Virus record (IMG/VR): IMGVR_UViG_3300008113_000153
Span: 1 to 44,308 of that record
Strand: one strand, 5' to 3'
Source: a virus
Length of the DNA: 44,308 bases
This document shows positions 830 to 29,280 of the stretch, piece after piece. Both the position numbers and the translations under genes were made by a program. The number at the start of each line of letters is the position of its first letter. The stretch's first letter is position 1. The notes beneath the pieces were generated by a model. The model searched no databases. It saw only the letters and a program-made list of their open reading frames with translations, and was not told the DNA's origin.

Positions 830-840
830 GGAAATTCTAT

Positions 841-850
841 ATATTTATAA
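841..850 (+). promoter_or_regulatory. Candidate late promoter motif ATATTTATAA
   Basis: An exact copy of the recurring 10-base motif lies 19 bases before the ATG at 870, in the gap after the portal gene. It would drive the prohead-core/protease unit (870-4767). Promoter function is inferred from recurrence at unit heads. Confidence 0.6.
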
Positions 851-869
851 ATAAACAAATATTACAAGA

Positions 870-4133: not shown

Positions 4134-4134
4134 T

Positions 4135-4767
4135 ATGAACAAGCAACTTTTAATAGAAACCAGACATTTTGATCCAAAACCAATGAAATTGGTTGAGGGG
4201 ATGAGCAAAAACGGTAACGTTTTTGTTGAAGGGATATTGGCTACTGTAGAGGTAAAAAATGGAAATGGTCGCTATTACAAACGTGAATTGTGGGAGCGTG
4301 AAATCGACAACTTTACACGCAAAATCCAAATGAAATCTACCGAAACGGTAGGTGAGTTGGACCATCCTGATTCACAAGTAATTAACCTTAAAAACGCATC
4401 ACATGCTATACGTGAAGTATGGTGGAGAGGAGATGAAATTTGGGGTAAAGTAGAAATATTCTCTGATATGGGCGACTTAGGTACTACATCAGGTCGCATT
4501 GCAGGTGCATTGGTTAAAAATGGCCTGATCATTGGTATTTCTTCTCGTGGAATGGGTTCACTTAAACAAATGGGTGAGGTAATGGAAGTACAAGACGACT
4601 TTGAATTACTTACTTGGGACTTAGTTTCTAATCCATCTAACCCAGATTCATGGATGAAAAATGGTGCTTTAAACGAATCAAGAACAACATATTTAAACGA
4701 ATACGCACGCACAAATTCAATTATTACCGAAATTTTATGTGCTAAAGGTTCGTGTCCTATACTATAA
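4135..4767 (+). CDS. gp21: Prohead core protease gp21
   Basis: A 210-residue protein matching the T4 gp21 prohead protease family, which degrades the scaffold and trims the capsid protein at (L/I)xE sites before DNA packaging. The family's conserved blocks are visible: NGNGRYYKRELWE near residues 42-54, GELDHP with the candidate catalytic His77, and GISSRGMGSL with candidate nucleophile Ser136 or Ser137. The histidine and serine fit the herpesvirus/HK97-type serine protease fold. The length is close to T4 gp21 (212). The start is 1 base after the stop of the previous gene. A strong terminator follows at 4792-4817. Confidence 0.9.
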   Translation: MNKQLLIETRHFDPKPMKLVEGMSKNGNVFVEGILATVEVKNGNGRYYKRELWEREIDNFTRKIQMKSTETVGELDHPDSQVINLKNASHAIREVWWRGDEIWGKVEIFSDMGDLGTTSGRIAGALVKNGLIIGISSRGMGSLKQMGEVMEVQDDFELLTWDLVSNPSNPDSWMKNGALNESRTTYLNEYARTNSIITEILCAKGSCPIL

Positions 4768-4791
4768 CGATTTGCAAACCGGTGAAAATTG

Positions 4792-4817
4792 GCCCTCTTT
4801 TTGAGGGCTTTTTTTTT
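4792..4817 (+). terminator. Intrinsic terminator after gp21
   Basis: A 6-bp perfect stem GCCCTC/GAGGGC (4792-4797 with 4803-4808) with a TTTTT loop is followed by nine Ts. This closes the portal-protease unit and separates it from scaffold/capsid. Confidence 0.9.
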
Positions 4818-4954
4818 CTCTGCGACTTTAACGTGTTTGCTACATACATATAATTCGAATATGCCACCCCCCTCACATCTTATGTGGCATCGATATAAAA
4901 AATTCTATTACGTTTCTTAATAAACGTACTTTCCCAACAAATAATTTAGGAAAA
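4818..4954 (+). promoter_or_regulatory. Structured leader of scaffold/capsid unit
   Basis: These 137 bases between the gp21 terminator and gp22 contain two inverted repeats. ATGCCAC at 4861-4867 pairs with GTGGCAT at 4884-4890; an inner CACAT/ATGTG pairing competes for part of the second arm. TACGTTT at 4909-4915 pairs with AAACGTA at 4922-4928 around a 6-base loop. No clear ATATTTATAA copy is present; a TATAAT at 4850-4855 is the nearest promoter-like sequence. A 19-codon ORF (4861-4920) starts inside the first hairpin and may be chance. The roles are unknown; the leader precedes the most highly expressed virion genes. Confidence 0.4.
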
Positions 4955-5977
4955 ATGGCAACAAACAGAGATTTGCTTAAAGAAGCAATCGCAGATGCTA
5001 AAGCTGTTAAAGAAACCGCTATCGCAAATGCAAAAGCAGCTCTACAAGAAGCCTTCACACCTCAAATGCATGCTATGTTTGCCGCAAAACTTCAAGAAAT
5101 GGAACTCGAAGAAGAAGAACTTGAAGAAACATATGGTAAATCTGAAGATGAAAAATCTAAACTTGAAGAAGAAGGATTTGGAAAAAGCAGAGCAGAAGGC
5201 AATGTTGGATTCAGCACGATGGACGAAAAAGCTCTTGACGAAACTGAAGATAACGACGCAGATGACATAAATGAACTTGATTTGGAAGAGCTTTTACGCG
5301 AGCTAGAACTAGAAGAAGAGGAAGATGTGGAAGAAGCCTTAAACGAAGCCGAAGAAGAGGAAGAAGAAGATGTTGAAGCATCTGAAGAAGAATCAGAAGA
5401 AGGTGAAGACGAAGGTGAACCACTTGACCTCGAAGACATGACCGATGAGGATCTTAAATCAATGATTGAAGATGTTATTAAGGACATGATCGAAGCAGGC
5501 GAACTCGAAGCTGGCCACGAAGGTGGTGAAGAAGAGGAAGCCGAAGAAGTAGGAGTTGAAGATGAAGAAGAAATTAATTTAGAAGAATTACTTCGCGAAA
5601 TCGAAGAAATGGAAGAAATTGATTCTTTAGAAGAGGCTAAAAAGTATGGTGGAAATAAAGGCGACGAAAAACGTGACGACATGAAAAAAGAAAAAGAAGG
5701 TCACGGTAAAGGTCCTAAGAAAAAAGACACCGCTGAAGACGAAAAAGAAACAGATTATAAGAAAAAGCTTAAAGAAGAACTCGAAGAAGCTTACTCTGCA
5801 ATCGAATCTTTGAAAGCCGAATTGAATGAAATCAATTTGTTAAATGCTAAGTTGCTTTATACAAATAAAATCTTCAAAGCTAAAAACTTAAACGAAAACC
5901 AAAAAGTGAAAGTGTTAAGTTCTTTTGACAAAGCAACAACTGTAGGTGAAGTTAAGATGGTGTTTGAAACTTTATAA
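4955..5977 (+). CDS. gp22: Prohead scaffolding core protein gp22
   Basis: A 340-residue, extremely acidic protein; residues about 45-235 are dominated by Glu/Asp runs. The C-terminal block is characteristic: ELNEINLLNAKLLYTNKIF followed by NLNENQKVKVLSSFDKATTV, a pattern I associate with T4-type gp22. gp22 forms the internal core on which the capsid protein assembles and is then digested by gp21. It lies between protease and capsid genes, as in T4, and is probably co-transcribed with gp23, which starts 26 bases after its stop. The long Glu tracts match a protein meant to be degraded into acidic peptides. Confidence 0.87.
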   Translation: MATNRDLLKEAIADAKAVKETAIANAKAALQEAFTPQMHAMFAAKLQEMELEEEELEETYGKSEDEKSKLEEEGFGKSRAEGNVGFSTMDEKALDETEDNDADDINELDLEELLRELELEEEEDVEEALNEAEEEEEEDVEASEEESEEGEDEGEPLDLEDMTDEDLKSMIEDVIKDMIEAGELEAGHEGGEEEEAEEVGVEDEEEINLEELLREIEEMEEIDSLEEAKKYGGNKGDEKRDDMKKEKEGHGKGPKKKDTAEDEKETDYKKKLKEELEEAYSAIESLKAELNEINLLNAKLLYTNKIFKAKNLNENQKVKVLSSFDKATTVGEVKMVFETL

Positions 5978-6003
5978 TTTTTAAACAAAAACAAAAACAG
6001 AAA

Positions 6004-7404
6004 ATGTCAAACATTAATTCTCTTTTAGAAAGCGCAGCTGGCAGTTGGAAAAACATGCAAAGCGACGCAGCTCGTATGGCCGCAAAATGGGGCAAAACGG
6101 GTCTCTTAGAAGGATTGAACAGCGAAGTTGAGAAAAACAACATGGCTTTGATCCTCGAAAACCAAGCAAAACAACTTGTTGTTGAGCAATCTTCTACCAA
6201 CATTAATGGTGGTACCTTCCAAGTAGGTCAAGGTGAGCAGTGGGCTGGTGTAGCTCTTCCATTGGTACGTAAAGTATTCGGTTCTTTGTCAACTAAAGAA
6301 TTCGTTTCTGTACAACCAATGAATTTGCCTTCTGGTCTTGTATTCTTCTTAGATTTCCAATATGGTGATCCTAGCGGTAAAGTTGCTCCTCTTGGAAACT
6401 TTGGTCCTGGTGGTGACACTTATGGTGCTACTTCATCTATGTATGGTAACACAAACCCAGGTGCTGCAAATGATCCTTCACAAGGTCTTTACGGTGCAGG
6501 TCGTTTTGCTTACTCAATCAACCAATTCTCTGCATCTATTACTAACGTAACTGTTGCTACAGCTTCTTGGGATGATTTACAATATGGTGCTGAATACTTA
6601 TTAACTTCTCAGTCATATACACGTGTTGATGTTCCATTAACAACTGTACTTAACTACGATTCTAAAGGTGTTCGTGCATTCGTTATCGCTTCAGGTTCAG
6701 CATTAACTGCTGCTACTAACGCGTTGTTGTTACCACAATTTACTACAGTTGCTAACAATACTGCATCATTTATCTTTAACGGTGCTGTAGGTGCAGCTAA
6801 TGTTCCATTTGGTGGTACTAACCGTTTGTACTACAACATCCAACCAGTTGATAACAACCGTGGTGATTTTGAAGATAGATTAAATACATCATCTCCTCAA
6901 GCTGGTGGTTATCCTAACGCTGATTCTACATCTGCTGATCAATTAGCAATTCCGCAAATCAATATCCAAATGAAATCTGAGGCTATTGTTGCTAAAACTC
7001 GTAAGTTAAAAGCACAATGGACACCAGAATTCGCTCAAGATTTGAACGCATACCAATCTTTGGATGCTGAAGCTGAATTAACTTCAATCATGAGCGAGTA
7101 TATCGCATTAGAAATCGATCTTGAAGTATTGGATATGTTGATCCAAGATGCATCTGCATGGGATGAGTACTGGAATGTACAAAACAACCAAGCATTAAAT
7201 GCTGCTAAAACAGGATACGATGATTTAGGTTTCTACAACACACAAGGTCAGTGGTTCCAAACTTTAGGTACTAAAATGCAGAAAGTTTCTAACAAAATTC
7301 ACCAAAAGACTTTACGTGGTGGTGCAAACTTCATCGTAACCTCCATATGTACCATTAATCATGACGCCTCTTGTGTACGATCCAGAAACATTTACTCCAC
7401 GTAA
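6004..7404 (+). CDS. gp23: Major capsid protein gp23, disrupted near 3' end
   Basis: A T4-type major capsid protein. The N-terminus reads WGKTGLLEGLNSE, with a probable gp21 cleavage site after LLE at residue 36. Other family blocks are QPMNLPSGLVFFLDFQYG, KTRKLKAQWTPEFAQDLNA, DAEAELTSIMSEYIALEID and GGANFIVTS at about residues 439-447. T4 gp23 has roughly 75 more residues between the last block and its PYVxL block. Here the sequence jumps straight into the PYVPL segment, but in the +1 frame, so this frame ends in about 20 unrelated residues. The true C-terminus is encoded at 7340-7489. Either a real deletion/frameshift or an assembly error is present; an essential gene favours the latter. 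Confidence 0.85.
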   Translation: MSNINSLLESAAGSWKNMQSDAARMAAKWGKTGLLEGLNSEVEKNNMALILENQAKQLVVEQSSTNINGGTFQVGQGEQWAGVALPLVRKVFGSLSTKEFVSVQPMNLPSGLVFFLDFQYGDPSGKVAPLGNFGPGGDTYGATSSMYGNTNPGAANDPSQGLYGAGRFAYSINQFSASITNVTVATASWDDLQYGAEYLLTSQSYTRVDVPLTTVLNYDSKGVRAFVIASGSALTAATNALLLPQFTTVANNTASFIFNGAVGAANVPFGGTNRLYYNIQPVDNNRGDFEDRLNTSSPQAGGYPNADSTSADQLAIPQINIQMKSEAIVAKTRKLKAQWTPEFAQDLNAYQSLDAEAELTSIMSEYIALEIDLEVLDMLIQDASAWDEYWNVQNNQALNAAKTGYDDLGFYNTQGQWFQTLGTKMQKVSNKIHQKTLRGGANFIVTSICTINHDASCVRSRNIYST

Positions 7405-11886: not shown

Positions 11887-13764
11887 ATGTCATTAATTAA
11901 ACCGGAACAGTTACGATCAGGATCATATAATATAACGGGTTCGTTATTTGGTACTTCATCCTTTGCTTTAACTGCTTCCTATGCTTTAAATGCTGGTGCT
12001 GGTAATGCAGATACAGGAAGTTTACTTATAACTGCTTCCTCTACTAATGCTGTTATTACCTTTACTAAAGGAGACGGATCAACATTTCCAATAACTATAA
12101 ATAATGTTGCTAGTGCTTCATATGCTATTTCTTCTTCATTAGCGTTAAATACTATATCAAGTTCATATGCTGCAACAGCATCATTTATTAGTAATTTATA
12201 TAGTAGTAATTATACACAATCATTTACAAATCAATCTACTTGGGTAGTAATTCATAATTTAGATACTCGTTACGTTCTTGTACAAGTATATGATACTAAT
12301 TTTGATGAAATGATTCCTCAAAATATAGATCTAACAAATGATACTACTGTTACTATAACATTCCCTACTTTAGAAAGTGGAACCGCAGTTGTATCTGTAG
12401 GAGGTGCTTTACAAAATAATGGATCTATATCTTCTTCATATGCATTTAGTTCTACTAGTGCTTCATTTGCTTTAACAGCCTCTTATTTTAGTGGAAGTAT
12501 TACAAATGCTATAAGCGCTATAAGTGCTTCATATGCATCAACAGCTTCATATGTTCAAAATACAATAAGTGCTTCATACGCATCAACAGCTTCATATGTT
12601 GACCCAACATTTATTTCATCATCAGCTGCTGCTGCTGGCTTTGGTTCAGGTGGTGGATCTGTTACTGTTCCTGGTAGCGACACTCAAATATTATTTAATA
12701 GTGCAAGTGCATTAGGAGCATCACCTGATTTTAAATACAATCATACTATTGCAAGTTTTCAACATGGGTATAATACAACAGCTTCAATTGATTATTCTCA
12801 TGCTGAAGGATACCAATCCCTTGCTTCAGGATATGCTTCCCATGCTGAGGGAAATACTAATACAACATTAGGTGCTTTTTCACATGCTGAGGGTGCTCAA
12901 ACACTAGCACTAGGAACTAACTCTCATGCTGAAGGTCAAAACACTACAGCACAAGGAGCAGGTTCCCATACTGAAGGCTCCTTTACTTCAGCCTCTGGTC
13001 TTTTCTCACATACTGAGGGTTTTCAAACTGCTGCTAAAGGTAATTCATCCCATGCTGAAGGATTAACTACTATAGCTTCAGGTAGTTATTCACATGCTGA
13101 AGGGACAGGTACAATTTCTATAGGTGAAAATTCACATGCAGAAGGTCAACAAACCCTTTCTCAAGGAGGATCGTCTCATGCTGAAGGGGTTAATACTATT
13201 TCTTCTGGTGATTTTTCTCATGCTGAAGGAAACAGTAATGAATCTATAGGATATGCGTCTCATGCTGAAGGATTTGCTACTATAGCATCAGGAAGTCATT
13301 CCCATGCTGAAGGATGGTTTACTATAGCTAGAGGAACATTTTCACACGCCGAGGGTCAACAATCTATATCCTCAGGTTCGTATTCACATGCTGAAGGTTA
13401 TCAAACAGTAGCTTTAGGTCAACATTCACATACCGAAGGTTATCAAACATATGCTTTAGGTCAAGCTTCTCACGCTGAAGGACTTGCTACTATATCCTCA
13501 GGTTCATTTCAGCATGTTCAAGGTCAATATAATAGACATGGAGATGCAACTTCTTTAATGATTGTAGGTAATGGTACTAGTGATAGTACTCGTAGAGATG
13601 CATTTAAAGTAAGAATGTCCGGCTCTATAGTACTCCCAACCACTCAATCAGCTGCTCCTTTATGGATAGGTACAGATGGAGAAATTGTTCCTGCAACTGT
13701 AGGAGGTCAATATCTCCTTTATATGTGGATGAATGGTGCCTGGAGATCAGGGTCATTTGTATAA
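11887..13764 (+). CDS. Tail-fibre/adhesin with SHAEG beta-roll repeats (copy 1)
   Basis: A 625-residue virion fibre. Residues 1-240 contain low-complexity Ala-Ser-Tyr repeats (TASYAL, SASYASTASYV) around a beta domain (about 110-175, WVVIHNLDTRYVLVQVYD). Residues 302-546 hold 17 copies of a 14-residue SH(A/T)EG unit plus one degenerate copy. The repeat resembles the YadA-head / Hep_Hag left-handed beta-roll of trimeric adhesins, so the fibre is probably trimeric. After it comes a block with IVGNGTSDSTRRDAF as in phage tail-spike tips, then a beta C-terminus. There is no signal peptide, which fits a virion protein. A receptor-binding role is inferred. Confidence 0.75.
   Translation: MSLIKPEQLRSGSYNITGSLFGTSSFALTASYALNAGAGNADTGSLLITASSTNAVITFTKGDGSTFPITINNVASASYAISSSLALNTISSSYAATASFISNLYSSNYTQSFTNQSTWVVIHNLDTRYVLVQVYDTNFDEMIPQNIDLTNDTTVTITFPTLESGTAVVSVGGALQNNGSISSSYAFSSTSASFALTASYFSGSITNAISAISASYASTASYVQNTISASYASTASYVDPTFISSSAAAAGFGSGGGSVTVPGSDTQILFNSASALGASPDFKYNHTIASFQHGYNTTASIDYSHAEGYQSLASGYASHAEGNTNTTLGAFSHAEGAQTLALGTNSHAEGQNTTAQGAGSHTEGSFTSASGLFSHTEGFQTAAKGNSSHAEGLTTIASGSYSHAEGTGTISIGENSHAEGQQTLSQGGSSHAEGVNTISSGDFSHAEGNSNESIGYASHAEGFATIASGSHSHAEGWFTIARGTFSHAEGQQSISSGSYSHAEGYQTVALGQHSHTEGYQTYALGQASHAEGLATISSGSFQHVQGQYNRHGDATSLMIVGNGTSDSTRRDAFKVRMSGSIVLPTTQSAAPLWIGTDGEIVPATVGGQYLLYMWMNGAWRSGSFV
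12790..13524 (+). repeat. SHAEG 14-residue repeat array, 17 + 1 copies
   Basis: In-frame 42-base units encode SH(A/T)EG followed by nine variable residues, usually with a central small-Gly pair. The last copy is degenerate (QHVQG). Units differ in codon choice, so the array is old rather than newly expanded. Confidence 0.85.
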
Positions 13765-16007: not shown

Positions 16008-19000
16008 ATGCCAAATTGGAAAAAAGTCATAGTATCGGGCTCTAATGCTGCCCTAAATTCTTTAAATGTAACAACTAGCATTACAGGCTCTACAGCCCTT
16101 TTTACTTCAATCCCTTCAGGAACAACAGAAACCAATATTGTTGTATTAACAGCAGATGGTGATTTAAGATATAGAAATAATTTAAGTTTACAAGGTGCAC
16201 AAGGTACAACTGGAACCCAAGGAACTACAGGAACTACTGGTGCTCAAGGTACTACTGGTACACAAGGTACAGTAGGAACACAAGGCGCAACTGGAGCTCA
16301 AGGAACCACAGGTGCACAAGGTATAACTGGAACACAAGGTACTACTGGAGCACAAGGAGTAACAGGAACCCAAGGTACAACTGGAACAACTGGTGCACAA
16401 GGTACAACTGGTGCTACTGGTTCACAAGGTACAACTGGTGCTACTGGTTCACAAGGTGCTACTGGTGCTACTGGTTCACAAGGAGCTACTGGAGCACAAG
16501 GATCAACAGGTACACAAGGAGCTGTTGGTACACAAGGAGTTACTGGAACACAAGGTGCTACTGGTTCACAAGGCGCAACTGGAGTACAAGGAACAACAGG
16601 TGCTACTGGAGCTCAAGGTACTACTGGTGCAACAGGATCTCAAGGTGCAACCGGAGCTACTGGTTCACAAGGAGCTACTGGAGCACAAGGAACTACTGGT
16701 ACTCAAGGTGCTGTAGGTTCACAAGGAACTACTGGAGCACAAGGAACTACTGGAGCACAAGGAACAGTTGGTACACAAGGAACAACCGGAAACACTGGAG
16801 CACAAGGAACAACAGGAGCAACAGGATCTCAAGGTGCAACCGGAGCTACTGGTTCTCAAGGTACAACTGGAGCTCAAGGTACAACAGGAACTCAAGGAAC
16901 AGTCGGTACACAAGGTACAACTGGAGCACAAGGAGCTACTGGGTCACAAGGAACCGTCGGTACACAAGGTACAACTGGTGCTACTGGTTCACAAGGAACT
17001 ACCGGAGCACAAGGTATACAAGGTGGTACTGGAGCAACCGGCTCACAAGGTACAACTGGAGCCCAAGGTACCGTTGGTACTACTGGTGCACAAGGAACTA
17101 CTGGAACACAGGGTACACAAGGCGTTACTGGTGCACAAGGAGGAACAGGAGCACAAGGAACTACTGGAACACAGGGTGCAGTTGGTACACAAGGTACAAC
17201 TGGAGCACAAGGAATTACAGGAACACAAGGTACAACTGGTGCACAAGGTACAACAGGAACACAAGGAAATGATGGTTCATTTGGTGGTGCTACGTTTGAT
17301 TACACCTACGATACTTCCACAGCAGCATCAGATCCTGGTACTGGTAAAGTACGATTAAATAACGCAACTGAAAACGTTGCTACTGCGATGTATATTGATT
17401 CTACTACGGATCAAGGTGCAAATATAGATTCATTTTTAAATACAATTAATGCTGTATCATCAGCTATAAAAGGATATGTTAGAATTGCAAATAGAACAGA
17501 TGCAACTCAATTCCTATTATTCCAGATATCAGCATTAACTAATAATACAGGTTGGTGGACATTAACTGTCACTAACCAAGCATTTTCTGCTGCATCACCA
17601 TTTACAAATGCTGAAGACATTATAGTATCTTTTGTAACTACTGGTGATAAAGGTGCACAAGGAACAACAGGTACACAAGGCGTTACTGGTGCACAAGGAA
17701 CAACTGGAACACAAGGTACAGTTGGTACAACAGGTGCTCAAGGTACTACTGGAACACAAGGTACAGTTGGAGCTACCGGATCACAAGGTGCTACTGGAGC
17801 ACAAGGTACAACAGGAACACAAGGAGTTGTTGGTACACAAGGTACAACCGGTGCACAAGGCGCAACAGGTGCACAAGGAACTACTGGTACAACAGGTGCA
17901 CAGGGTGCTACTGGAGCTCAAGGAACTGTAGGTACTACTGGTACACAAGGAACAACTGGAGCTACTGGTTCGCAAGGAGCTACTGGAGCACAAGGAACAA
18001 CTGGGAATACGGGTGCTCAAGGAACTACAGGTACACAAGGAACTGTAGGTGCAACAGGATCTCAAGGTGCAACCGGAACAACAGGTGCACAAGGAGCAAC
18101 AGGTACACAAGGAGCTGTTGGTACCCAAGGTACTACTGGAGCAACAGGAGGAACTGGAGCACAAGGTGCTACTGGAGCACAAGGTACTACTGGTAACACT
18201 GGAGCACAAGGTACAACTGGAACACAAGGAACTGTAGGTGCAACAGGATCTCAAGGTACTACTGGAACTACTGGAGCCCAAGGAACAACAGGTACACAAG
18301 GAGCTGTTGGTGCTACTGGAGGAACAGGTACTCAAGGTGCTACTGGATCTCAAGGAGTAACAGGAATACAAGGAACTACTGGAAATACTGGTGCACAAGG
18401 AACAACTGGAGCACAAGGAACTGTAGGTGCTACTGGTGCACAAGGAACTACTGGAACTACTGGAGCCCAAGGAGCAACAGGTACACAAGGAGCTGTAGGT
18501 ACTCAAGGTGCTACTGGAACGCAGGGTGCAGTTGGTACACAAGGTACTACTGGTGCACAAGGAACTACTGGAACACAAGGCATCCAGGGTATTACAGGTG
18601 CTACTTCTTATGCACTACCCGAAACCGCAGGATCAGCTTCTTGGATCAAACTTGGTACTTGGTCTACATCGCAACAAGGACAATCACTTTACATTCAAAT
18701 TGTAGCTAAAAGTGGTTATAATGCTGATACTACTCAAAACCAAGTTACTGAATTATATTTTAAAACATCTAATGGTTCTAGTAATCAAGGTGGTTTTTAT
18801 GGTGATGGATTAGCCTTTAGAAATACATCATTAGGAACTAACAGTGCGTCTCCTTCTACAATCAGAGTTGTCCAGGTTAGTACTACTTCATATGAAGTCT
18901 ATGGAAACTTCAGTACATATACTGGTTATGGTTCATTATATGCAGTTTTAAACTCACCAAGTACAACTTGGACAAATAGCTCAACAACAGTATCTACTCC

Positions 19001-20237
19001 AACCGGTACTTACATAGATATATCTCCTAGTACCGCAATAGGTCCTCAAGGTATAACTGGAGCACAAGGTACTACTGGAACACAAGGTGCTGTAGGTACT
19101 ACTGGAAATACTGGTGCACAAGGAGCAACAGGTGCACAAGGTACTGTTGGTACAACTGGTACACAAGGAGCAACAGGTGCACAAGGAACTGCTGGTACTA
19201 ATGGTACTCAAGGAACTACTGGAGCACAAGGTATAACTGGAGCACAAGGGGTACAAGGTAGACAAGGTATTACTGGTACAAATGGTACTCAAGGTGCTAC
19301 TGGAGCACAAGGAACAGTAGGTACAACAGGAACTCAAGGAGCAACTGGAGCACAAGGAACAACTGGAGCAACAGGAGGAACAGGTACCCAAGGAGCAACA
19401 GGTGCACAAGGAACAACTGGAGCAACAGGAGCAACAGGTGCACAAGGAACTACTGGAGCAACTGGATCTACCGGAGCACAAGGAACAACTGGAGCCCAAG
19501 GTACAACAGGAACTGGTACCCAAGGAACAACAGGTGCACAAGGTGCAACTGGAGCGGCATCAATTACAAATAATACAGATAATTATGTTCTTACAGCAAC
19601 AGGTGGCTCATCAATTAATGGTGAAGCTAATTTAACATTTGATGGTAGCACTCTTGCATTAGTTGGTAATACTGAATTAAATGGAAATTCAAATTACCTT
19701 AGATGGATGAGTAGTGGAACAACTTTTTATGCTGGTGGTGTTGATATCAGTGCAATAAGTGGTGGCCCAGTCGTTAGACAAGGTGTAAGTTCAGTTAATA
19801 GATACCCAGATTTACAAAACTGGACTGATCAAGTTTATTTTAATGGGTTAATAATTGGCCAAGTTGATGTTTCTGCAGCAGGTGCTGTATCCCCAGGCCA
19901 ACTTTTACATTTAACTACAGGTAATACATGGGAAGCTGCAGATGCAGATACCCAATCTGCAACTAAGTTATTAGGCATATGTGTTGAAAGCGCTGGTGCT
20001 GAAGGTATAACTACTGTTTTATTAAACGGTATATATTCAACAGTATACCATGACCAATTAGGTACAGCAACCTCAGGTACTCCTTTATATGTTTCTACAA
20101 CAAATACTGGATATGTAACTGAAACTGCTCCAACACAAACCGGTGATTTTGTTAGATTAATTGGACATAATATTTTCGACGCATCTGATGCAGTAATTGT
20201 AAGATTTGACCCTGATAATACTTGGATAGCATTATAA
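16008..20237 (+). CDS. Giant collagen-like tail fibre, 1409 aa
   Basis: A 1409-residue fibre. Residues 1-12 carry the WKKVIVSGS module shared with the 14080 gene. Three Gly-X-Y blocks follow at about 63-423, 546-864 and 1012-1184, made mostly of [12 protein letters not shown] and GTV triplets, almost without proline or charge. They are separated by two globular beta domains (about 424-545 and 866-1011). The C-terminal 225 residues contain the [13 protein letters not shown] block and a beta tip (about 1285-1409) with DNTWIAL at the end. Such proteins form trimeric triple-helical shafts in phage fibres. Thr-rich triplets could be O-glycosylated, as known for Bacillus BclA; that is only inference here. 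Confidence 0.85.
16194..17277 (+). repeat. Collagen-like Gly-X-Y block 1
   Basis: About 120 in-frame Gly-X-Y triplets, based on [12 protein letters not shown] units. The DNA repeats at 9 and 18 bases with synonymous variation, so replication slippage and assembly errors are possible here. Confidence 0.9.
17643..18600 (+). repeat. Collagen-like Gly-X-Y block 2
   Basis: About 105 in-frame Gly-X-Y triplets in the same style, with recurring [10 protein letters not shown] and GTVGATG sub-units. It ends in [10 protein letters not shown] before the second globular domain. Confidence 0.9.
19041..19558 (+). repeat. Collagen-like Gly-X-Y block 3
   Basis: About 57 triplets. Includes [10 protein letters not shown] units and one positively charged triplet region ([10 protein letters not shown]), rare in the other blocks. 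One GTG step near 19514 breaks the strict triplet register. Confidence 0.88.
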
Positions 20238-20248
20238 TAATATAGATT

Positions 20249-20584
20249 ATGCCTTCAATTAACGGAATAGATTTTAATAACATTAGTTTATTAAACGGAG
20301 TTTCTTGGAGCTCCGTTTCGAACATTGGTGGTGTTCCAGTTACCCATGCCCCAACTTGTACACCTATAGCATTAGGTTACTCAGATGGAAGAAGAGATCC
20401 AATGGAAGCAGCATGTACTAATTTTCCTATTGTTTGGGACCAAGATTCTTCTACTGGAGCATTATATATCCCTGGACAATGTGGTGTTACTTATGCCCCT
20501 ACAGGATTTTATTCAGATGGTACAACAATCTATTTTTATGATGGGGCAAATAGTTTTTTTCCTGTTGGTTCGTGTCCAAGATAA
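20249..20584 (+). CDS. Small Cys-containing virion-like protein, 111 aa
   Basis: A 111-residue protein 11 bases after the giant fibre, probably co-transcribed with it. The N-terminus MPSINGIDFNNISLLNGVSW has the INGxxFxxIS style of short phage fibre modules. A CTPIALGYSDGRRDP segment and four or five cysteines follow, with strand-rich DGTTIYFYDGAN near the end. It might be a fibre tip, chaperone or accessory protein of the collagen-like fibre. A perfect inverted repeat (AAACGGAG/CTCCGTTT) at 20293-20318 lies inside the coding region. Family not recognised. Confidence 0.55.
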   Translation: MPSINGIDFNNISLLNGVSWSSVSNIGGVPVTHAPTCTPIALGYSDGRRDPMEAACTNFPIVWDQDSSTGALYIPGQCGVTYAPTGFYSDGTTIYFYDGANSFFPVGSCPR

Positions 20585-20598
20585 TTTGGATATTTAAA

Positions 20599-20608
20599 AT
20601 ATTTATCA
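20599..20608 (+). promoter_or_regulatory. Candidate late promoter motif (ATATTTATCA)
   Basis: A one-mismatch motif copy 12 bases before ATG 20621, the standard spacing; heads the fusion-enzyme/TPR unit. Confidence 0.5.
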
Positions 20609-20620
20609 TACATTCAACGT

Positions 20621-23152
20621 ATGAATTCAAATTTTGTTAAAAAGGTTTTAAAAAATAATGGTTCTATCCATCCCATTATTATCCCCGCTGATCAAACAAA
20701 TGGAACAGGGTTAATGAATCCCTCTATTTACAATGACAATGGCAAACTTATAATGAATTTACGCCATGTAAATTATACATTATACCATTGTGAAGGAGAA
20801 CAATTATATATCAATCGTTGGGGCCCATTAGCATACCTAAATCCCGAAAATGACCTACATTTACGTACAACAAATTATTTTTGTGAAGTAACTGATGATT
20901 TAGAAGTTAAATCATTTACAAAAATTGATACTTCAAAATTAGATGTACCACCTATTTGGGAATTTGTTGGATTAGAAGATGGACGTTTAGTTCGTTGGAA
21001 CGATAAATTATATATCTGTGGTGTTAGACGAGATACTACCTCACATGGTGAAGGTAGAATGGAGATGTCTGAACTTGAAATAAAAGATGGTAAAGTTCGA
21101 GAAGTAAAACGTAGTCGTATTAAACACCCATATGATCAATCATCTTATTGTGAAAAAAATTGGATGGTTGTCAATGATATGCCTAACCATTTTATGAAAT
21201 GGACTAATCCTACTGAATTAGTAGAGGCAAATCCTGAAACACTTGAATGTTTTCAACGAGTTGTAAAACCCGGAACTGGACAACATCAAGATATGAGAGG
21301 TAGTTCACAAATTATTCCATATAAAGGAAAACGTATTTGTGTTATCCATGAAGTTGATTTATTTAAAAATAAACTTGGACAAAAAGATGGAAAATATACG
21401 CATCGCTTTGTAATCTGGGATAAAGATTGGAACATTGAACACATTTCAGAACCGTTTAGTTTTATGGATGGTGAAGTTGAATTTTGTTGTGGACTAACAG
21501 AACATAAAGATGATTTACTTATTACATTCGGATTTCAGGATAATGCTGCTTATATTTTAAGAATGCCTCAAACATTCTTTGATCAATATATTGAATCAGA
21601 AAAAAAATCACTTGAATTTAATTGGGGAGAAATTGCTGAAAATAAATGGTTTCAAGAAACAGTTACTGAAGAAATTTTTATTCGTGAAGACTATACAGAA
21701 AAATTTCCAATTGAAAAAGATGATATTGTTTTAGATATTGGAGCATCGGTGGGTCCATTTACATTTTCAATTTTAGATAAACAACCAAAACATGTTTATT
21801 GTTTTGAACCAAAGAAAACGCTATTTGATACAATGGTTCAAAATATTGGAAATAATCCCAATGTTACATTAATTAATAAAGGTATAAATAATGTAGATGG
21901 TGAAACCGAATTTAAAGGCTTATATTTTTCAGATGTTGTAGAAACTCATGGTAGAACTGCTATCGCAGATGCTATTACATTTGATACTTTTTTAGAAGAA
22001 TATGAAGTTTCACAAATTGATTTTATGAAAATTGATTGTGAGGGTGGTGAATATGATATTTTTACTACAGAACGTTTACCTTGGATCAAACAAAACGTTA
22101 AAAAGATTGTAGGTGAATGGCATTTAGCTACCCCTGAACTAAAAGAAAAATTCAGAACGTTTAGAGATACTTATTTAAAACAATTCCATACGTTTGATGT
22201 TTATTCATGGGATGGAGTAGATATTAAGTGGGATTTATGGAACGATCATTTTATTGATTACTATAACGAAATTACACTTTATATTGATAATCGTAGATCT
22301 GAGAAAAAAGAATATTGGCGATTAACTTCGTTACCAACCTTAGAGTTTACTACATCAATCCCACCAAAAGGATGTGTAATTGATTGTGCATTTTGTCCTC
22401 AACGAACATTGTTAAATGTTTACAAGGCAGATAAAACAATGACATTTGAAAACTTTAAAAAAGTAATAGATAAATTACCTAAAGAAGTACGTGTAACATT
22501 CTCCGGATTCACTGAACCATGGTTAAATAAACGCTGTACAGATATGCTTATTTATGCTTCACAACAAGGTCATCCTATAGCAGCATTTACTACAGGTGTA
22601 GGTATGACAGTTGAAGATGTAGAACGCATTAAAGATATTAAATTTGATGGTGGAGAAAATGGTGGTTTATGTTTACATATCCCTGACCAGGAACTTATTG
22701 CTAAACATCCAATTACACCTCGCTTAATTGAAGTATTTGAACGTTTTAAAGAACTTGAAAACCATATAGAAAACTTTTACGTTATGTGTATGGGAGAAGT
22801 TCATGAAAGTGTTAAACATTTATGGCCTGAAGTACATGTTCCTACATTTTGGTCTAGAGCAGGTAACCTATTAGGCGAAGCCATCATTAAACCCGAACTA
22901 GAAAAATATAAAGACCGATTCCAGCACATGGATCATGGTGATAAACCTATGACTTGTGGTTGTGTTGAAGATTTATACCATAATGTTGTATTACCTAATG
23001 GAGATGTTTCATTATGTTGTATGGATTACGGTTTAAAACATATTTTAGGAAATATATTTGAACAAGATTATGAAGATGTAATTCCTAGACCACTACAATG
23101 TTTTTCCTTATGTCAAGGATGTGAAAATGCAGTATCACCTGATAAAAAATAA
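20621..23152 (+). CDS. Three-domain fusion: GH130-like propeller + FkbM methyltransferase + radical SAM/SPASM
   Basis: An 843-residue soluble enzyme. Residues 1 to about 330 look like a five-bladed propeller of the GH130/GH43-like type: PSIYNDNGKLIMNLR, GLEDGRLVRWNDKLYICGVR, RGSSQIIPYKGKRICVIHEV and EVEFCCGLTEHKDDLLITFG. Residues about 345-560 are an FkbM-type SAM methyltransferase with DIVLDIGASVGPF near 367 and DFMKIDCEGGEYD near 467. Residues about 575-843 are radical SAM with CVIDCAFC (C-x3-C-x2-C) near 584-591 and a C-terminal Cys-rich SPASM-like part (CGC, LCC, CFSLCQGC). Substrates are unknown; FkbM enzymes usually O-methylate sugars. The surrounding fibre genes suggest glycan or fibre modification. 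The propeller call is the least certain. Confidence 0.75.
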   Translation: MNSNFVKKVLKNNGSIHPIIIPADQTNGTGLMNPSIYNDNGKLIMNLRHVNYTLYHCEGEQLYINRWGPLAYLNPENDLHLRTTNYFCEVTDDLEVKSFTKIDTSKLDVPPIWEFVGLEDGRLVRWNDKLYICGVRRDTTSHGEGRMEMSELEIKDGKVREVKRSRIKHPYDQSSYCEKNWMVVNDMPNHFMKWTNPTELVEANPETLECFQRVVKPGTGQHQDMRGSSQIIPYKGKRICVIHEVDLFKNKLGQKDGKYTHRFVIWDKDWNIEHISEPFSFMDGEVEFCCGLTEHKDDLLITFGFQDNAAYILRMPQTFFDQYIESEKKSLEFNWGEIAENKWFQETVTEEIFIREDYTEKFPIEKDDIVLDIGASVGPFTFSILDKQPKHVYCFEPKKTLFDTMVQNIGNNPNVTLINKGINNVDGETEFKGLYFSDVVETHGRTAIADAITFDTFLEEYEVSQIDFMKIDCEGGEYDIFTTERLPWIKQNVKKIVGEWHLATPELKEKFRTFRDTYLKQFHTFDVYSWDGVDIKWDLWNDHFIDYYNEITLYIDNRRSEKKEYWRLTSLPTLEFTTSIPPKGCVIDCAFCPQRTLLNVYKADKTMTFENFKKVIDKLPKEVRVTFSGFTEPWLNKRCTDMLIYASQQGHPIAAFTTGVGMTVEDVERIKDIKFDGGENGGLCLHIPDQELIAKHPITPRLIEVFERFKELENHIENFYVMCMGEVHESVKHLWPEVHVPTFWSRAGNLLGEAIIKPELEKYKDRFQHMDHGDKPMTCGCVEDLYHNVVLPNGDVSLCCMDYGLKHILGNIFEQDYEDVIPRPLQCFSLCQGCENAVSPDKK

Positions 23153-23154
23153 TT

Positions 23155-23706
23155 ATGACACTACAATATTGGTTACAAAAATATATAAAAGATCCTAAAA
23201 ATCAATCAATTAACTTTAATTTGGGGTGGAGTTATGAACAACAAGGTCAAACAGCATCCGCTGCTGGTTTTTATCTTCGTAGTACTGAATTTGGACATGA
23301 TAAAAATCTTCAATATGAAGCATTAATGCGAATGGCATTATGTTTTGAAAAACAAGGTAATCGTATATTTACTATTAAAGGTATTTTATTACGAGCTATA
23401 TCCATTTTACCTAAACGCCCAGAAGCATATTTTTTACTATGTAGAATATATGAACGAAATAAAGATTGGCAGGAAGGTTATACTATGGCTGTAACATCGC
23501 ACGAATTTGCTACTGATGAACCTAATACAGTAACCGATGTAGAATATCCTGGTAAATTAGGATTTACATTTGAAAAAGCCGTATGTGCATGGTGGATTGG
23601 GTTATGGAATGAATCATTAGATTTATTTAAAGAATTAAAAGATAAAGACTTACCAGAGATATATAAAACAGCTATTAATAGTAATTTGAATAATTTACAA
23701 GCCTGA
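23155..23706 (+). CDS. TPR-like protein, 183 aa
   Basis: A 183-residue all-helical protein starting 2 bases after the fusion enzyme stop, clearly its operon partner. Helical pairs such as NFNLGWSYEQQGQTASAAGF, EALMRMALCFEKQGN and PEAYFLLCRIYERNKDWQEG have tetratricopeptide-repeat spacing (W/L-G-Y-A-x-F positions). TPR proteins are scaffolds for protein-protein contact and are frequent partners of glycosylation enzymes. It likely binds the fusion enzyme or its target; this is inferred from coupling only. Confidence 0.65.
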   Translation: MTLQYWLQKYIKDPKNQSINFNLGWSYEQQGQTASAAGFYLRSTEFGHDKNLQYEALMRMALCFEKQGNRIFTIKGILLRAISILPKRPEAYFLLCRIYERNKDWQEGYTMAVTSHEFATDEPNTVTDVEYPGKLGFTFEKAVCAWWIGLWNESLDLFKELKDKDLPEIYKTAINSNLNNLQA

Positions 23707-23730: not shown

Positions 23731-25155
23731 ATGGCAAACACATTACAGAAAATATTTACTCCTACTGTAGATGAGGTAGTACAAAACTATACTATTCAAT
23801 CTTGGCATGTTTCTCAATCAGTAGATGCATTTACTGGAACTGAAGCTTATGATATTACATTATCCGGGTCTTTAGTTGTAACAGGTTCTGTTGCTATCAA
23901 TGGACTATCTAATGTACCTCAAAACAGTGTTTTATTATATGATGATGTTACTGGATTAGTATATTATACTGCATCATCTGCTTTTGCCGTTAATAACTTT
24001 TATACAAGTAGTATTACTCAAAGTATTACAAGCAGTACAGTAAACAATACTATTAACAACAGTACTATTAACCAAACTATTATCAGCAGTAGTGTAAACA
24101 ATGTTGCTCCTTCTGATCAATATGTCCAATATAATAGTGCAAGTGCTTTTGGAGCAAGTATAAGTTTCCAATATGTTTACCCAAGTGAAAGTTTACAGCA
24201 TGGTAGTGGACCATCAGCTCTTGGAAATTATTCCCATGCAGAAGGAAAAGATACCCGTTCAACTGGAGGTGCTTCTCATGCTGAAGGATTCGGTACTTTA
24301 GCTAGTGGTCTTTATTCACATGCTGAAGGATACTTTACAACAGCATCAGCTGAGCTTTCTCATGCTGAGGGATGGCAAACTAAAGCAATAGGTCATCATT
24401 CACATGCTGAAGGAAATGGTGCTAGAGCAACAGAATCTGGTTCACATGCCGAAGGAGCATCAACACAAGCAATAGCAAATGCTTCCCATGCTGAAGGAGG
24501 AGTTACTGTTGCCGCTGGGGGATTTTCACATGCTGAAGGATACCAAACAAGAACATCAGGAATAGCTTCACATGCTGAAGGACATCTTTCAATTGCACTT
24601 GGAAATTATTCTCATGCTGAAGGATATGCTACAACAGCATCAGCAGACTATTCTCATACTAATGGATTAGGAACTACAGCAGGTGGAACTTACCAACACA
24701 TTGCTGGAGCTTATAATTTATCTTCAGCAAATGCTTCGGCATTTATTGTAGGAAATGGAACAAATAATGCTTCAAGATCAAATTTAATATTTGCTTCTGG
24801 CTCTACATTCCAAGTTACTGGATCAGTAGCTCTTACTCAAAACTTAACTGTAGGTGGAGGATATAGACCAAATACCCGCCAAACAGACTCAGCATTAGAC
24901 CCAACACTTTTAGTTACTGATCATGTAGTATTTGTTGCTCCATCTTCACCTGGGGGAATTATTTATCTTCCAGCGTCACCAGTAGCAAATATGCAAATAG
25001 TAATAATGAGAACTGAACTCACACCTTCATTTACTGTTCAGCCATTAGGTGGATTCCTTATAAATGGTCTTTCATCTTATGCATTCCCAAATACAGCGTT
25101 TACTAGAAAAACATTTACTTTCTTTGGAAGTAGATGGTGGGTCGATTCAAATTAA
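23731..25155 (+). CDS. Tail-fibre/adhesin with SHAEG beta-roll repeats (copy 2)
   Basis: A 474-residue fibre related in plan to the 11887 gene. The N-terminal domain (about 1-100) is different (MANTLQKIFTPTVDEVVQNY), then an Asn/Thr/Ser-rich stalk (TINNSTINQTIISSSVNN) that could form a trimeric beta-helix. Eleven 14-residue SHAEG repeats follow at residues 166-312, then FIVGNGTNNASRSN and a C-terminal beta domain of about 110 residues ending WWVDSN. Different N-termini with similar repeat heads suggest attachment to different virion sites. Likely a receptor-binding fibre; trimerisation is inferred from the YadA-like repeat. Confidence 0.73.
   Translation: MANTLQKIFTPTVDEVVQNYTIQSWHVSQSVDAFTGTEAYDITLSGSLVVTGSVAINGLSNVPQNSVLLYDDVTGLVYYTASSAFAVNNFYTSSITQSITSSTVNNTINNSTINQTIISSSVNNVAPSDQYVQYNSASAFGASISFQYVYPSESLQHGSGPSALGNYSHAEGKDTRSTGGASHAEGFGTLASGLYSHAEGYFTTASAELSHAEGWQTKAIGHHSHAEGNGARATESGSHAEGASTQAIANASHAEGGVTVAAGGFSHAEGYQTRTSGIASHAEGHLSIALGNYSHAEGYATTASADYSHTNGLGTTAGGTYQHIAGAYNLSSANASAFIVGNGTNNASRSNLIFASGSTFQVTGSVALTQNLTVGGGYRPNTRQTDSALDPTLLVTDHVVFVAPSSPGGIIYLPASPVANMQIVIMRTELTPSFTVQPLGGFLINGLSSYAFPNTAFTRKTFTFFGSRWWVDSN
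24226..24666 (+). repeat. SHAEG 14-residue repeat array, 11 copies
   Basis: In-frame 42-base units with SHAEG or, in the last copy, SHTNG. Units are about as different from each other as from those at 12790-13524. Confidence 0.85.
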
Positions 25156-25488: not shown

Positions 25489-27522
25489 ATGGCAGAAACA
25501 ATTGTCTCACCTGGTGTATTAGCAATAGAGAACGACCAATCATTTGTAACTCAACAACCTGTACAAGCAGGTGCTGCTATCATTGGCCCAACCGTTAAAG
25601 GTAAAGTAGGAATTCCTACTCTAGTAACTTCATATAGTGATTATTTAAATAAGTTTGGTGCTACTTTTTTAAGTGGAAGTACTACTTATACTTATTTTAC
25701 TTCTATTGCTGCTTATAACTATTTTAATAGTGGTGGAACTTCACTTTTAGTAACTCGTGTTGTAACTGGATCATTTACTTCTGCTACTTCATCTTTAATT
25801 CCTTCATCAACAGCAGCTACTTCAGCATCTGCTACTCTTGATTTAACTAATGCAGTAACAGTTGCTTATACAGCTTCATTTAATGGTATAGATGTAATCC
25901 TTTCAGGATCAACAACTCAAGAAGTATTTAATAATGCTACATCTTCAGGTGTAATTCCATCCAACCCAACTAACTTTTACACAAATACAACTATTAATAG
26001 TAGTGCTTCATTTAATGCTCCTACTATGACTATAACTTCCACTAACCCAAATGGTTTAGCTGGAAATTCATCTTACTACATTTCAGGAAGTACAATTGTG
26101 TATTATACTGGTGGTACAAACACTGAAGCATTTATCCTAGAGACCATATCTGAAGGAGAAATCATGAATAGTACTGGCCCAGTAGGTCAAAACAATACCC
26201 TTCTTTCAGGATCAAGTGAAAACTATAGATGGCAGATTACTTCTCCTAATGTAAATGATGGAACATTTTATCTTTTAATTCGTCAAGGAAATGATACTGT
26301 TATTTCTCCGTCTGTTTTAGAATCATGGGGTCCATTATCTTTAGATACGAACTCACCAAACTATATCGAAAAAGTAATAGGTAATCAAGTTGAAACAATT
26401 CAATTTGATCCTTCAACAGGTGAATATTATGTTGAATTGGTTGGAAATTATGCCAATGTTTCAAAATATGTTAGAGTAAAACAAGTAAATACTCCAACAC
26501 CAAATTACTTTGACAATAATGGAATCCCTAAACCAGAATTTACAGGTTCAATTCCATATTTTTCAAGTGGTTCTTTTGGTGATGCTACAGGAAAATTATT
26601 CTATGGAGGTGACAACAAATATTATGAAACTATCACAACTACCAATAATATCCAAGGTATCCCAGCTAGTGCATATACTGAATCTATTTTATTATTAGCT
26701 AATAAAGATGCATATAACTATAATTTATTAGTTGCTCCTGGGTTAATATCTAGTATGGGTGGTGTAGCTGCTTCTGCTATTACTTCTATGATTGACACTG
26801 CTCAAAATAGAGGTGATATGATGGTAGTATTTGATTCTTCATTATATAACTCTCAAATCGGTAGTGTATTATCTAATGTTGCCGGGTATGATACTTCATA
26901 TGCTGCTACTTACTGGCCTTGGGTTAAAACAATTGATCCAAATACAGCTAATCAAGTTTGGGTACCTGCGTCTGCTGTAGTTCCTGGAGTATATGCTTTT
27001 AATGATAATGTTGCTGCTCCTTGGTTTGCTCCTGCAGGTATTAATAGAGGAGTATTAACTACTACTATTCAAGCAGAACGTGTATTAACTCAAAATAATA
27101 GAGATACATTATATCAAGCAAATATTAATCCTATTGCTACTTATCCTAATACTGGTATAGTAGTATTTGGACAAAAGACATTACAAAAGAAAAAAAGTTC
27201 TTTAGACCGTATTAACGTACGTCGTTTATTGATTGAACTTAAAAGCTATATTTCTCAAGTTGCTGATACATTTGTATTTGAACAAAATGATGCTGTTACT
27301 CGTAGTAATTTTTCATCTATTATCAGTTCATATTTAGCATCTGTTCAACAGCAACAAGGTTTAACCGCGTTTAGAGTGGTAATGGATGAATCTAACAACC
27401 CACCTCAAGTAGTAGATAATAATCAAATGGTAGGACAAATTTATTTACAACCTACTAGAACAGCTGAATTTATCATACTTGATTTCAATATATTACCTAC
27501 TGGTGCAACATTTCCTGTTTAA
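25489..27522 (+). CDS. gp18: Tail sheath protein gp18-like, long paralogue
   Basis: A 677-residue contractile tail sheath protein. The N-terminus has the sheath pattern SPGVLAIENDQSFVTQQPVQ and a GPTVKG block. The C-terminal 200 residues are highly characteristic: APWFAPAGINRGVLTTTIQA, INVRRLLIELKSYISQVADT, FRVVMDESNNPPQVVDNNQM and QPTRTAEFIILDF. Compared with the next gene it carries about 115 extra residues (roughly 105-215), Ser/Thr/Asn-rich and beta-like, in a part of sheath proteins that generally faces outward. The two sheath genes are closely similar at both ends and so are paralogues. It has its own late motif. Confidence 0.88.
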   Translation: MAETIVSPGVLAIENDQSFVTQQPVQAGAAIIGPTVKGKVGIPTLVTSYSDYLNKFGATFLSGSTTYTYFTSIAAYNYFNSGGTSLLVTRVVTGSFTSATSSLIPSSTAATSASATLDLTNAVTVAYTASFNGIDVILSGSTTQEVFNNATSSGVIPSNPTNFYTNTTINSSASFNAPTMTITSTNPNGLAGNSSYYISGSTIVYYTGGTNTEAFILETISEGEIMNSTGPVGQNNTLLSGSSENYRWQITSPNVNDGTFYLLIRQGNDTVISPSVLESWGPLSLDTNSPNYIEKVIGNQVETIQFDPSTGEYYVELVGNYANVSKYVRVKQVNTPTPNYFDNNGIPKPEFTGSIPYFSSGSFGDATGKLFYGGDNKYYETITTTNNIQGIPASAYTESILLLANKDAYNYNLLVAPGLISSMGGVAASAITSMIDTAQNRGDMMVVFDSSLYNSQIGSVLSNVAGYDTSYAATYWPWVKTIDPNTANQVWVPASAVVPGVYAFNDNVAAPWFAPAGINRGVLTTTIQAERVLTQNNRDTLYQANINPIATYPNTGIVVFGQKTLQKKKSSLDRINVRRLLIELKSYISQVADTFVFEQNDAVTRSNFSSIISSYLASVQQQQGLTAFRVVMDESNNPPQVVDNNQMVGQIYLQPTRTAEFIILDFNILPTGATFPV

Positions 27523-27567: not shown

Positions 27568-29280
27568 ATGGCAAATTTCACAACTTCTCCTGGAGTAGCA
27601 ATTAGCGAAATAGACAACACTTTCTTAACTGGCCAACCAGTACAAGCAGGTGCTGCTATTATAGGCCCTACAGTTAAAGGCCCATATGAAAAACCAGTAC
27701 TTGTAACAACTTATTCAGACTTTGTAACATTGTTTGGAGATACTTTTATTAGTGGTGGTAACTCTTATTCTTATTTAACTTCAATTGCTGCTTACAATTA
27801 TTTTAATTATGGAGGAACTTCATTATTAGTTGCTCGTGTAGCAAGTGGTTCTTATTCGTCTGCAGTTAGCACCCCAATTCCTAATATTTTTACCTCTTCA
27901 TCTTTTTCTTTAGAAACGATTTCTGAAGGAGTTCTTATGAATAACTCAGGTTCAAATACACTTGGAGCTTCAGGATCATTAAACTCAGGATCAGTTGCTA
28001 ATATTCGTTGGGAAATTACAAATGCTAACACTGGTTCAGGTACATTTAACGTATTAATTAGACGTGGTAATGATATTGAGTCTAATAAAGTAGTATTAGA
28101 GGCATGGAATAATTTAACATTAGATCCAAATTCAAACCGCTATATTTCTAGAGTAATTGGTGATCAAAAACTTCAATATAATTCTACTACACAACAAATG
28201 GAATTATCTGGAAGCTTTCCAAATAATTCAAAATATGTTCGTGTAAAATCAGTTAATTATCCTACACCAAATTATTTTGATGCAAATGGTGTTGCAATAG
28301 TAGCCTATACAGGATCTATCCCAGTAAATGGTAGTGGTTCAGCTGGTGGGTCATTTAGAAATGCTGGAGGAGATGTAAGTGGTTCAATTAAATTATATGA
28401 TGAAATTGGTGTTAATACACAAGGATTAATAGGTGATGATTATAATAATATGATTACACTTTTAGGTAATCCTGAAGAATATCAATTTAACGTATTATTT
28501 ACTCCTGGTCTATTAAACGATACTCATACAGAACAAGTTACAAATATTATCTCAAATACAATTGCAAGAGGTGATAGTATGTATGTGATGGATTTAGGAA
28601 TATACGGTACTAAACTTCCAGAAGCAGTAACACAAGCTCAAATGCGTGATACTTCATATGCTGCTACTTATTGGCCTTGGGTTCGCATCATTGACCCAGG
28701 AACAGGAAAACATGTTTGGGCTCCAGCTTCAACCGTAATTCCAGGTGTATATGCATTTAATGATAAAGTAGCTGCTCCTTGGTTTGCACCAGCAGGTATT
28801 AACCGCGGTGGATTAAGCACAGTTCTTCAAGCTGAATATAAACTTACACAAGGTAATCGCGACACATTATACAGCAATAATATTAACCCAATTGCAACAC
28901 TCCCTCAACAAGGTGTAGTAGTATATGGTCAGAAAACACTACAAAAAGCTCAATCTGCTCTTGATCGTGTAAACGTACGTCGTTTAATGATTGAATTGAA
29001 AGCTTATATCAAACAAATTGCAGATACAATTGTATTTGAACAAAATACTATTTCTACAAGAAATTCATTCTTATCAAGAGTTAACCCATACCTAGAAGCA
29101 ATTCAACAAAAACAAGGATTGTATGCCTTTAGAGTTGTAATGGATGATTCAAATAATGGACCAGCAGTAATTGATCAAAATCAATTAGTAGGACAAATTT
29201 ATATTCAACCTACCCGCACAGCTGAATTCATTTCGTTAGACTTTATTTTACAACCAACAGGTGCTCAATTCCCTGTATAA
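27568..29280 (+). CDS. gp18: Tail sheath protein gp18-like, short paralogue
   Basis: A 570-residue sheath protein, parallel in order and motif to the previous gene (SPGVAISEIDNTFLTGQPVQ; GPTVKGPYEKPVLVTTYSDF; APWFAPAGINRGGLSTVLQA; NVRRLMIELKAYIKQIADTI; QPTRTAEFISLDF). It lacks the 115-residue insertion, so it is nearer the minimal sheath. In contractile tails the sheath polymerises around the tube and shortens to drive it through the envelope. It is followed by the tail tube gene as in T4 (18-19). Whether both paralogues enter one tail is not visible from sequence. Confidence 0.9.
   Translation: MANFTTSPGVAISEIDNTFLTGQPVQAGAAIIGPTVKGPYEKPVLVTTYSDFVTLFGDTFISGGNSYSYLTSIAAYNYFNYGGTSLLVARVASGSYSSAVSTPIPNIFTSSSFSLETISEGVLMNNSGSNTLGASGSLNSGSVANIRWEITNANTGSGTFNVLIRRGNDIESNKVVLEAWNNLTLDPNSNRYISRVIGDQKLQYNSTTQQMELSGSFPNNSKYVRVKSVNYPTPNYFDANGVAIVAYTGSIPVNGSGSAGGSFRNAGGDVSGSIKLYDEIGVNTQGLIGDDYNNMITLLGNPEEYQFNVLFTPGLLNDTHTEQVTNIISNTIARGDSMYVMDLGIYGTKLPEAVTQAQMRDTSYAATYWPWVRIIDPGTGKHVWAPASTVIPGVYAFNDKVAAPWFAPAGINRGGLSTVLQAEYKLTQGNRDTLYSNNINPIATLPQQGVVVYGQKTLQKAQSALDRVNVRRLMIELKAYIKQIADTIVFEQNTISTRNSFLSRVNPYLEAIQQKQGLYAFRVVMDDSNNGPAVIDQNQLVGQIYIQPTRTAEFISLDFILQPTGAQFPV

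Follow-up and report, generated by a model that had tools for sequence, protein, structure and literature searches.

A GH130/GT108-like propeller fused to FkbM methyltransferase and radical SAM/Twitch domains, from a modular phage cassette that may decorate collagen-like fibres

Here we analyse a three-enzyme fusion gene of a T4-like phage, located at 20621..23152 (+) in IMG/VR virus record IMGVR_UViG_3300008113_000153 (positions 1 to 44,308; this whole stretch of 44,308 nucleotides is referred to as the window). The gene codes for a protein of 843 amino acids (aa) which consists, from N- to C-terminus, of a GH130/GT108-like beta-propeller, an FkbM-family methyltransferase and a radical S-adenosylmethionine (SAM) domain with a Twitch extension. 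We propose that it belongs to a multi-activity glycan-assembly cassette of the late-gene region, probably acting on a collagen-like fibre, and give this reading a probability of roughly 0.55.

The open reading frame (ORF) runs uninterrupted from ATG at 20621 to TAA at 23152. The propeller corresponds to residues 1-326 (20621..21598), the methyltransferase to residues about 338-557 (21632..22291) and the radical SAM domain with C-terminal Twitch to residues about 563-843 (22307..23149), all on the + strand. The same three parts in the same order had been proposed in a first-pass annotation made from the letters of the sequence; profiles, the AlphaFold propeller and the ligands of iron-sulphur clusters agree with it. 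Several other IMG/VR contigs hold full-length copies with 84-100% identity, and locus L075 displays the identical three-part order at about 50% identity to the window protein. The order is therefore not an assembly artefact. When compared with seven relatives, each third of the protein has a ratio of nonsynonymous to synonymous substitutions (dN/dS) of 0.04-0.13, which indicates strong purifying selection on every domain. The full-length AlphaFold model has a predicted template modelling (pTM) score of 0.59, from which the arrangement of the domains cannot be firmly read, and a fold search with this model returned matches mostly to the propeller. At one further locus (L114:6425-8870), the three-enzyme ORF is split in two frames, propeller-FkbM and FkbM-radical SAM, due to a frameshift or a sequencing error.

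No family model from Pfam, NCBIfam or PHROGs, and no phmmer search, matches the first ~330 residues of the window protein. Weak GH130 matches below threshold were seen in two cyanophage relatives. A propeller profile of 6 rows weakly matched 1,2-beta-oligomannan phosphorylase, and the GH130 match was lost with a profile of 66 rows. Since direct sequence searches and the larger profile failed to identify the propeller, a structural route was needed. AlphaFold, supplied with an alignment of 66 sequences, predicts an all-beta propeller (mean local confidence, pLDDT, 89.6; pTM 0.90). Among solved structures, the top Foldseek ranks are occupied almost solely by GH130 and GT108 mannoside enzymes. 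VIA-align ranks RaMP1, an enzyme of GH130, first (Z 23.4, 280 residues aligned, root mean square deviation 3.2 A); GH130 structures score Z 20-23, Leishmania GT108 17-18 and the best GH43 rows at most 17.5. Agreement with the five-bladed GH130 fold was judged from the model and the Z score, the blades not being individually counted.

We also examined the active site. Propellers were compared with 11 GH130 proteins from genomes of one bacterial phylum; residue mapping rests on a MAFFT merge and on shared motif spacings, and hhalign gave local support only (E 1.5e-4, probability 51%). Residues conserved in both groups are N33, R48, G117-x-E119-D120-x-R122, K179, Y259, D267, F288 and D307. In Teth514_1788, mannose is recognised by Asn28, Asp92 and Asp281 (PMC4264767). 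An hmmsearch alignment pairs D120 with Asp92 and D307 with Asp281, while N33 fits the GH130 N-P-x13-R motif as counterpart of Asn28. Both the catalytic Asp within G-x-E-D and the Asn/Asp/Asp mannose triad are present, and N33, D120 and D307, together with R48, E119, R122 and K179, are invariant in 66 family members. The likeness to GH130 thus holds at the level of both fold and catalytic residues. It extends over 270-280 residues of the mannoside phosphorylases RaMP1 (5ay9), BfMGP (3was) and Teth514_1788 (9fj8), with the N-P-x13-R, G-x-E-D-x-R, Lys and C-terminal Asp motifs and the mannose-recognition triad in common. Unlike these enzymes, to which it is 9-14% identical, the phage propeller scores below the Pfam cut-off, is fused to methyltransferase and radical SAM domains, is paired with a TPR gene and is nearly virus-only. 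Leishmania GT108 mannosyltransferase/phosphorylases (6q4w, 6q4x, 6q50) share the fold (Z 17-18), and their family has GDP-Man-dependent transferase activity; however, they are structurally less similar to the phage propeller than GH130 and have no architecture in common with it.

The second domain is recognised by Pfam PF05050 (residues 372-515, 2.6e-12, 47.6 bits against a curated cut-off of 22.7) and by TIGR01444 (6.9e-19, 68.7 bits against 37.7), and carries FkbM motif I, DIVLDIGASVGPF, at residues 368-380. The third domain matches Radical_SAM PF04055 (residues 581-676, 6.8e-7, 30.0 bits, cut-off 29.5) and PF13186 (residues 783-822, 1.7e-5, 25.4 bits, cut-off 21.5). Its radical SAM motif C585-x3-C589-x2-C592, which defines the superfamily, is invariant in 23 members, as are the C-terminal cysteines C779, C799, C800 and C831-x2-C834. 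Spacing in the window protein, C779-x14-G-x4-C799, matches the Twitch pattern CX9-15GX4C ... CX2C, which provides for one auxiliary cluster; SPASM domains hold two (PMC6231123). In the 23-member alignment, no more Cys motif occurs between C831-x2-C834 and the C-terminus, so that the CX5CX3C...C half of the seven-Cys SPASM set is missing despite the PF13186 score above cut-off. Hence the CxxxCxxC motif and C-terminal Cys cluster noted earlier stand, and the SPASM label does not: judged by its cysteines, the C-terminal domain is a Twitch with one auxiliary Fe-S site.

The best solved match of the radical SAM domain is BtrN (4m7t; Z 17.4, 218 residues), which is also matched by profile (E 0.002-0.006). 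BtrN, a Twitch dehydrogenase of butirosin biosynthesis whose target is a sugar-like secondary alcohol, performs two-electron oxidation of the aminocyclitol DOIA (PMC9012708). It resembles the phage domain in its CX3CX2C motif and in a single auxiliary cluster with four Cys; on the other hand, identity over aligned residues is 19%, the substrate of BtrN is a free aminocyclitol and BtrN takes part in no such fusion.

The gene downstream in the window (23155..23706, +) codes for a TPR protein of 183 aa, recognised by ORF, profile and locus mapping. It starts 2 nt after the stop of the three-enzyme gene, and in profile mapping of fetched loci the propeller gene is directly followed by a gene starting with this specific TPR domain in 78 of 86 clusters, which bears out the suspected coupling of the two. 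Six-frame ORFs were used in place of gene calls in this mapping, and the underlying collection searches favour close relatives. In IMG/VR, at least 591 loci with the propeller and 190 with the radical SAM domain were detected; only 3 of 50,697 public phage records contain the propeller. Being common in environmental phages and so rare in public records, the cassette has escaped notice. Among 84,980 cellular genomes, six propeller loci were found. One of them (L251) has phage structural-type genes around the propeller and is clearly phage, and most of the remaining ones are small contigs of metagenome-assembled genomes. The propeller family is nearly virus-only. The L251 contig itself is that of a T4-like phage binned as Rhodobacteraceae; at 675-6820, five radical SAM-like genes and then 2-oxoglutarate (2OG)-oxygenase-like genes lie directly upstream of its propeller + TPR-FkbM2 cassette.

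Propeller and TPR constitute a fixed core, whereas the remaining modules vary. The interchangeable modules are FkbM, radical SAM, DUF6445, GT2, GT17, GT25 and WavE. In the window and its close relatives, the arrangement is propeller-FkbM-radical SAM + TPR. Elsewhere we detected propeller-radical SAM + TPR-FkbM2 (L031, L034, L059, L065), propeller-FkbM + TPR (L033), propeller + TPR-FkbM2-FkbM-radical SAM + DUF6445 (L070, L092), propeller-TPR (L093) and propeller-TPR-FkbM2 (L124). Synechococcus phage DSL-LC02 carries propeller + TPR-FkbM-radical SAM + DUF6445 adjoining collagen-like fibre genes. A quick tree of 82 propellers implies at least 12 changes of fusion state, with the triple fusion in two separate places. 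L032, with a propeller 72-73% identical to that of the window, has GT25 in place of the FkbM-radical SAM part, and L107 has GT17 with a methyltransferase there. TPR proteins and their long neighbours bear GT2, GT7C, GT17, GT25, WavE, several methyltransferase families, radical SAM and DUF6445. Homologues are thus often fused and have common neighbours. The first-pass annotation knew of no described protein with this three-part order in a T4-like phage, and we found none in the literature searched. The order is just one of the forms that this widespread, modular cassette takes. In the same literature we found no description of the propeller-TPR core, of module exchange or of a BtrN-like partner, which is not proof of absence. 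A PHROG label naming the TPR protein a beta-1,4-glycosyltransferase was rejected, as the match spans the TPR-like part only and the profile matches 14 of 14 control genomes.

The same propeller fold occurs in BFVD proteins of pithoviruses, Solivirus, Indivirus and Satyrvirus, some of them large and named for sugar-transfer enzymes. The proteins that contain these structural relatives go by names such as fucosyltransferase, LicD and pyruvyl transferase; going by the models, the propeller could be a viral glycan enzyme common to phages and giant viruses. Exchange of modules with glycosyltransferases and the giant-virus relatives together place the propeller among glycan-building enzymes.

Which molecule might the cassette act upon? 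Upstream of it (16008..20237, +) lies the gene of a collagen-like fibre protein of 1409 aa with GTTGAQG repeats. Thr makes up 45% and Gln 21% of the X and Y positions of the repeats, where Pro is absent. Between this gene and the enzyme gene is one for a 111-aa protein (20249..20584, +) without family match in profile searches. Of the 45 clusters whose sequence reaches far enough upstream, 24 have a collagen-like ORF no more than 6 kb away on that side, compared with 60 of 727 control genes (8%), the controls being drawn from twelve large contigs chosen as cassette carriers. In eleven large contigs the distance to a collagen-like tract is shorter for the propeller than for random positions (Fisher p 3.4e-4), and in six of them it is within about 1.1 kb. 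In L024 (2769-5522; copies in L025 and L026) we noticed a 918-aa GT9-FkbM-SDR fusion, without propeller, near a very regular collagen-like repeat of G-T/S-S/N units; it possibly represents a second route to fibre decoration.

Each domain is of a known kind, and glycosylation of viral collagen by fusion enzymes has a precedent. Mimivirus L230, a glucosyltransferase-lysyl hydroxylase fusion, acts on viral collagen (PMC4691112). It is the closest working analogue, being a fusion enzyme with which a virus glycosylates its collagen-like proteins, although its domains are different, its source is a eukaryotic giant virus and its acceptor is hydroxylysine; the phage fibre repeats are essentially without Lys or Pro.

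The propeller fold, the catalytic and cluster residues, the shuffled fusions, the selection and the gene linkage are results of computation; from them we infer the following scheme, including its donor, acceptor, order of steps and benefit. The propeller would transfer beta-mannose to an acceptor, or reversibly phosphorolyse it there, with D120 as catalytic acid and mannose-1-phosphate or GDP-mannose as likely donor. The radical SAM/Twitch domain may oxidise a sugar hydroxyl by analogy to BtrN, and the FkbM domain would O-methylate a sugar hydroxyl. The TPR partner would hold the protein substrate or scaffold the enzymes. As substrate, the Thr-rich collagen-like fibre whose gene precedes the cassette appears most likely, and the phage might benefit from fibre stability or from masking or tuning of host binding. 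An enzyme acting on a sugar or on fibre residues had been suggested before; domains and linkage support such an enzyme, with the fibre as its presumed substrate. More tentatively, and with less than even confidence, we envisage a phage protein-glycosylation factory. In it, a mannosyltransferase of the GH130/GT108 type would receive the collagen-like fibre from the TPR subunit, and radical SAM, methyltransferase, oxygenase-like and glycosyltransferase plug-ins exchanged among phages would write a strain-specific sugar code, the radical SAM enzyme being a BtrN-like oxidase of protein-bound sugar. To our knowledge, the ways in which phages glycosylate their own fibres have received little study. 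If fibre decoration is true, phages would have a quickly shuffled layer of surface chemistry, relevant to receptor binding and to escape from host defence. The cassette would then also be a source of new carbohydrate enzymes, one of them possibly a radical SAM enzyme that oxidises sugars.

Several observations weigh against glycan assembly on the fibre. No family member tested reaches the PF04041 (GH130) cut-off (the propeller of S-SCSM2R, a phage of Synechococcus WH7803, scores 21.4 bits against 26), which is why we call the propeller GH130/GT108-like and not a GH130 member, and its donor-binding and phosphate-binding residues are not readable. The Thr content of the fibre tract may not exceed that of collagen-like tracts in cassette-free phages. 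In one 62-kb contig the collagen-like tract is 43 kb away from the propeller, one 64-kb contig (the twelfth) has no such tract, and there is no collagen-like gene near the cassette copy of S-SCSM2R. Finally, clustering of fibre and glycan genes may reflect their common residence in a variable host-recognition region.

The last point leads to the main rival, which we consider rather unlikely: that the cassette modifies the host surface (lipopolysaccharide, O-chain or capsule), for example to block superinfection, and adjoins fibre genes just because both belong to the variable region. The host-recognition cluster of T4-like pelagiphages is, as here, a variable region in which fibre genes lie together with glycosyltransferases and radical SAM cassettes, and its glycosyltransferases were interpreted as host-surface modifiers (PMC7029224). 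In the passages of that description that we consulted, we found neither the propeller-TPR core nor the fusions nor a role in fibre modification. WavE, GT25 and GT9 modules are also often lipopolysaccharide enzymes. Physical linkage to collagen-like genes and the late structural genes that surround the cassette in the window argue for the fibre instead, as does the constant TPR partner, which suggests a protein substrate or scaffold.

Two other explanations seem improbable to us. The match of propeller fold and active site to GH130 phosphorylases would also suit a degradative or metabolic role, in which a phosphorylase or hydrolase recycles mannosides of the host and the other domains are loosely related auxiliaries; that the propeller has been fused again and again to methyltransferase, radical SAM and glycosyltransferase modules, along with the TPR partner, favours synthesis and decoration. 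Alternatively, the enzymes could act on the fibre polypeptide itself by radical peptide chemistry and side-chain methylation; the propeller would then serve for binding, as a platform, and would be no mannose enzyme. Peptide modification is common among SPASM/Twitch enzymes (PMC6231123), and DUF6445 proteins often adjoin the cassette. There is little room in this scenario for the GH130 active-site residues kept in 66 of 66 propellers, for a radical SAM domain nearest to the small-molecule dehydrogenase BtrN, or for modules that interchange with glycosyltransferases.

As regards the phage itself, matches to portal, head protease and major head protein support a T4-like setting. The first-pass annotation placed the three-enzyme gene under a late motif. 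We found TATTTATC (20600..20607, +) 21 bp before its ATG, a variant of a recurrent motif TATTTATA and possible late promoter; the T4 late promoter TATAAATA itself was looked for upstream of the gene and not found. TATTTAT(A) occurs within 40 bp upstream of 12 of the 34 gene starts in the window (870, 7575, 8298, 13786, 20621, 23731, 25489, 27568, 29327, 31872, 33335 and 35742 for motifs of the TATTTATA type). TATTTATA or its one-letter variants lie on the coding strand, about 13-29 bp ahead of the start codon, and A-rich sequence usually comes next. The motif is the reverse complement of TATAAATA and, by its sequence and placement, probably a late-promoter-like element of this phage.

Two proteins encoded on either side of the cassette region (11887..13764 and 23731..25155) match phrog_25468, the second having repeated SHAEG motifs like YadA-head repeats; they are possible fibre or adhesin parts. 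Further downstream, 25489..27522 and 27568..29280 are tandem related tail-sheath-like genes, coding for 677 and 570 aa.
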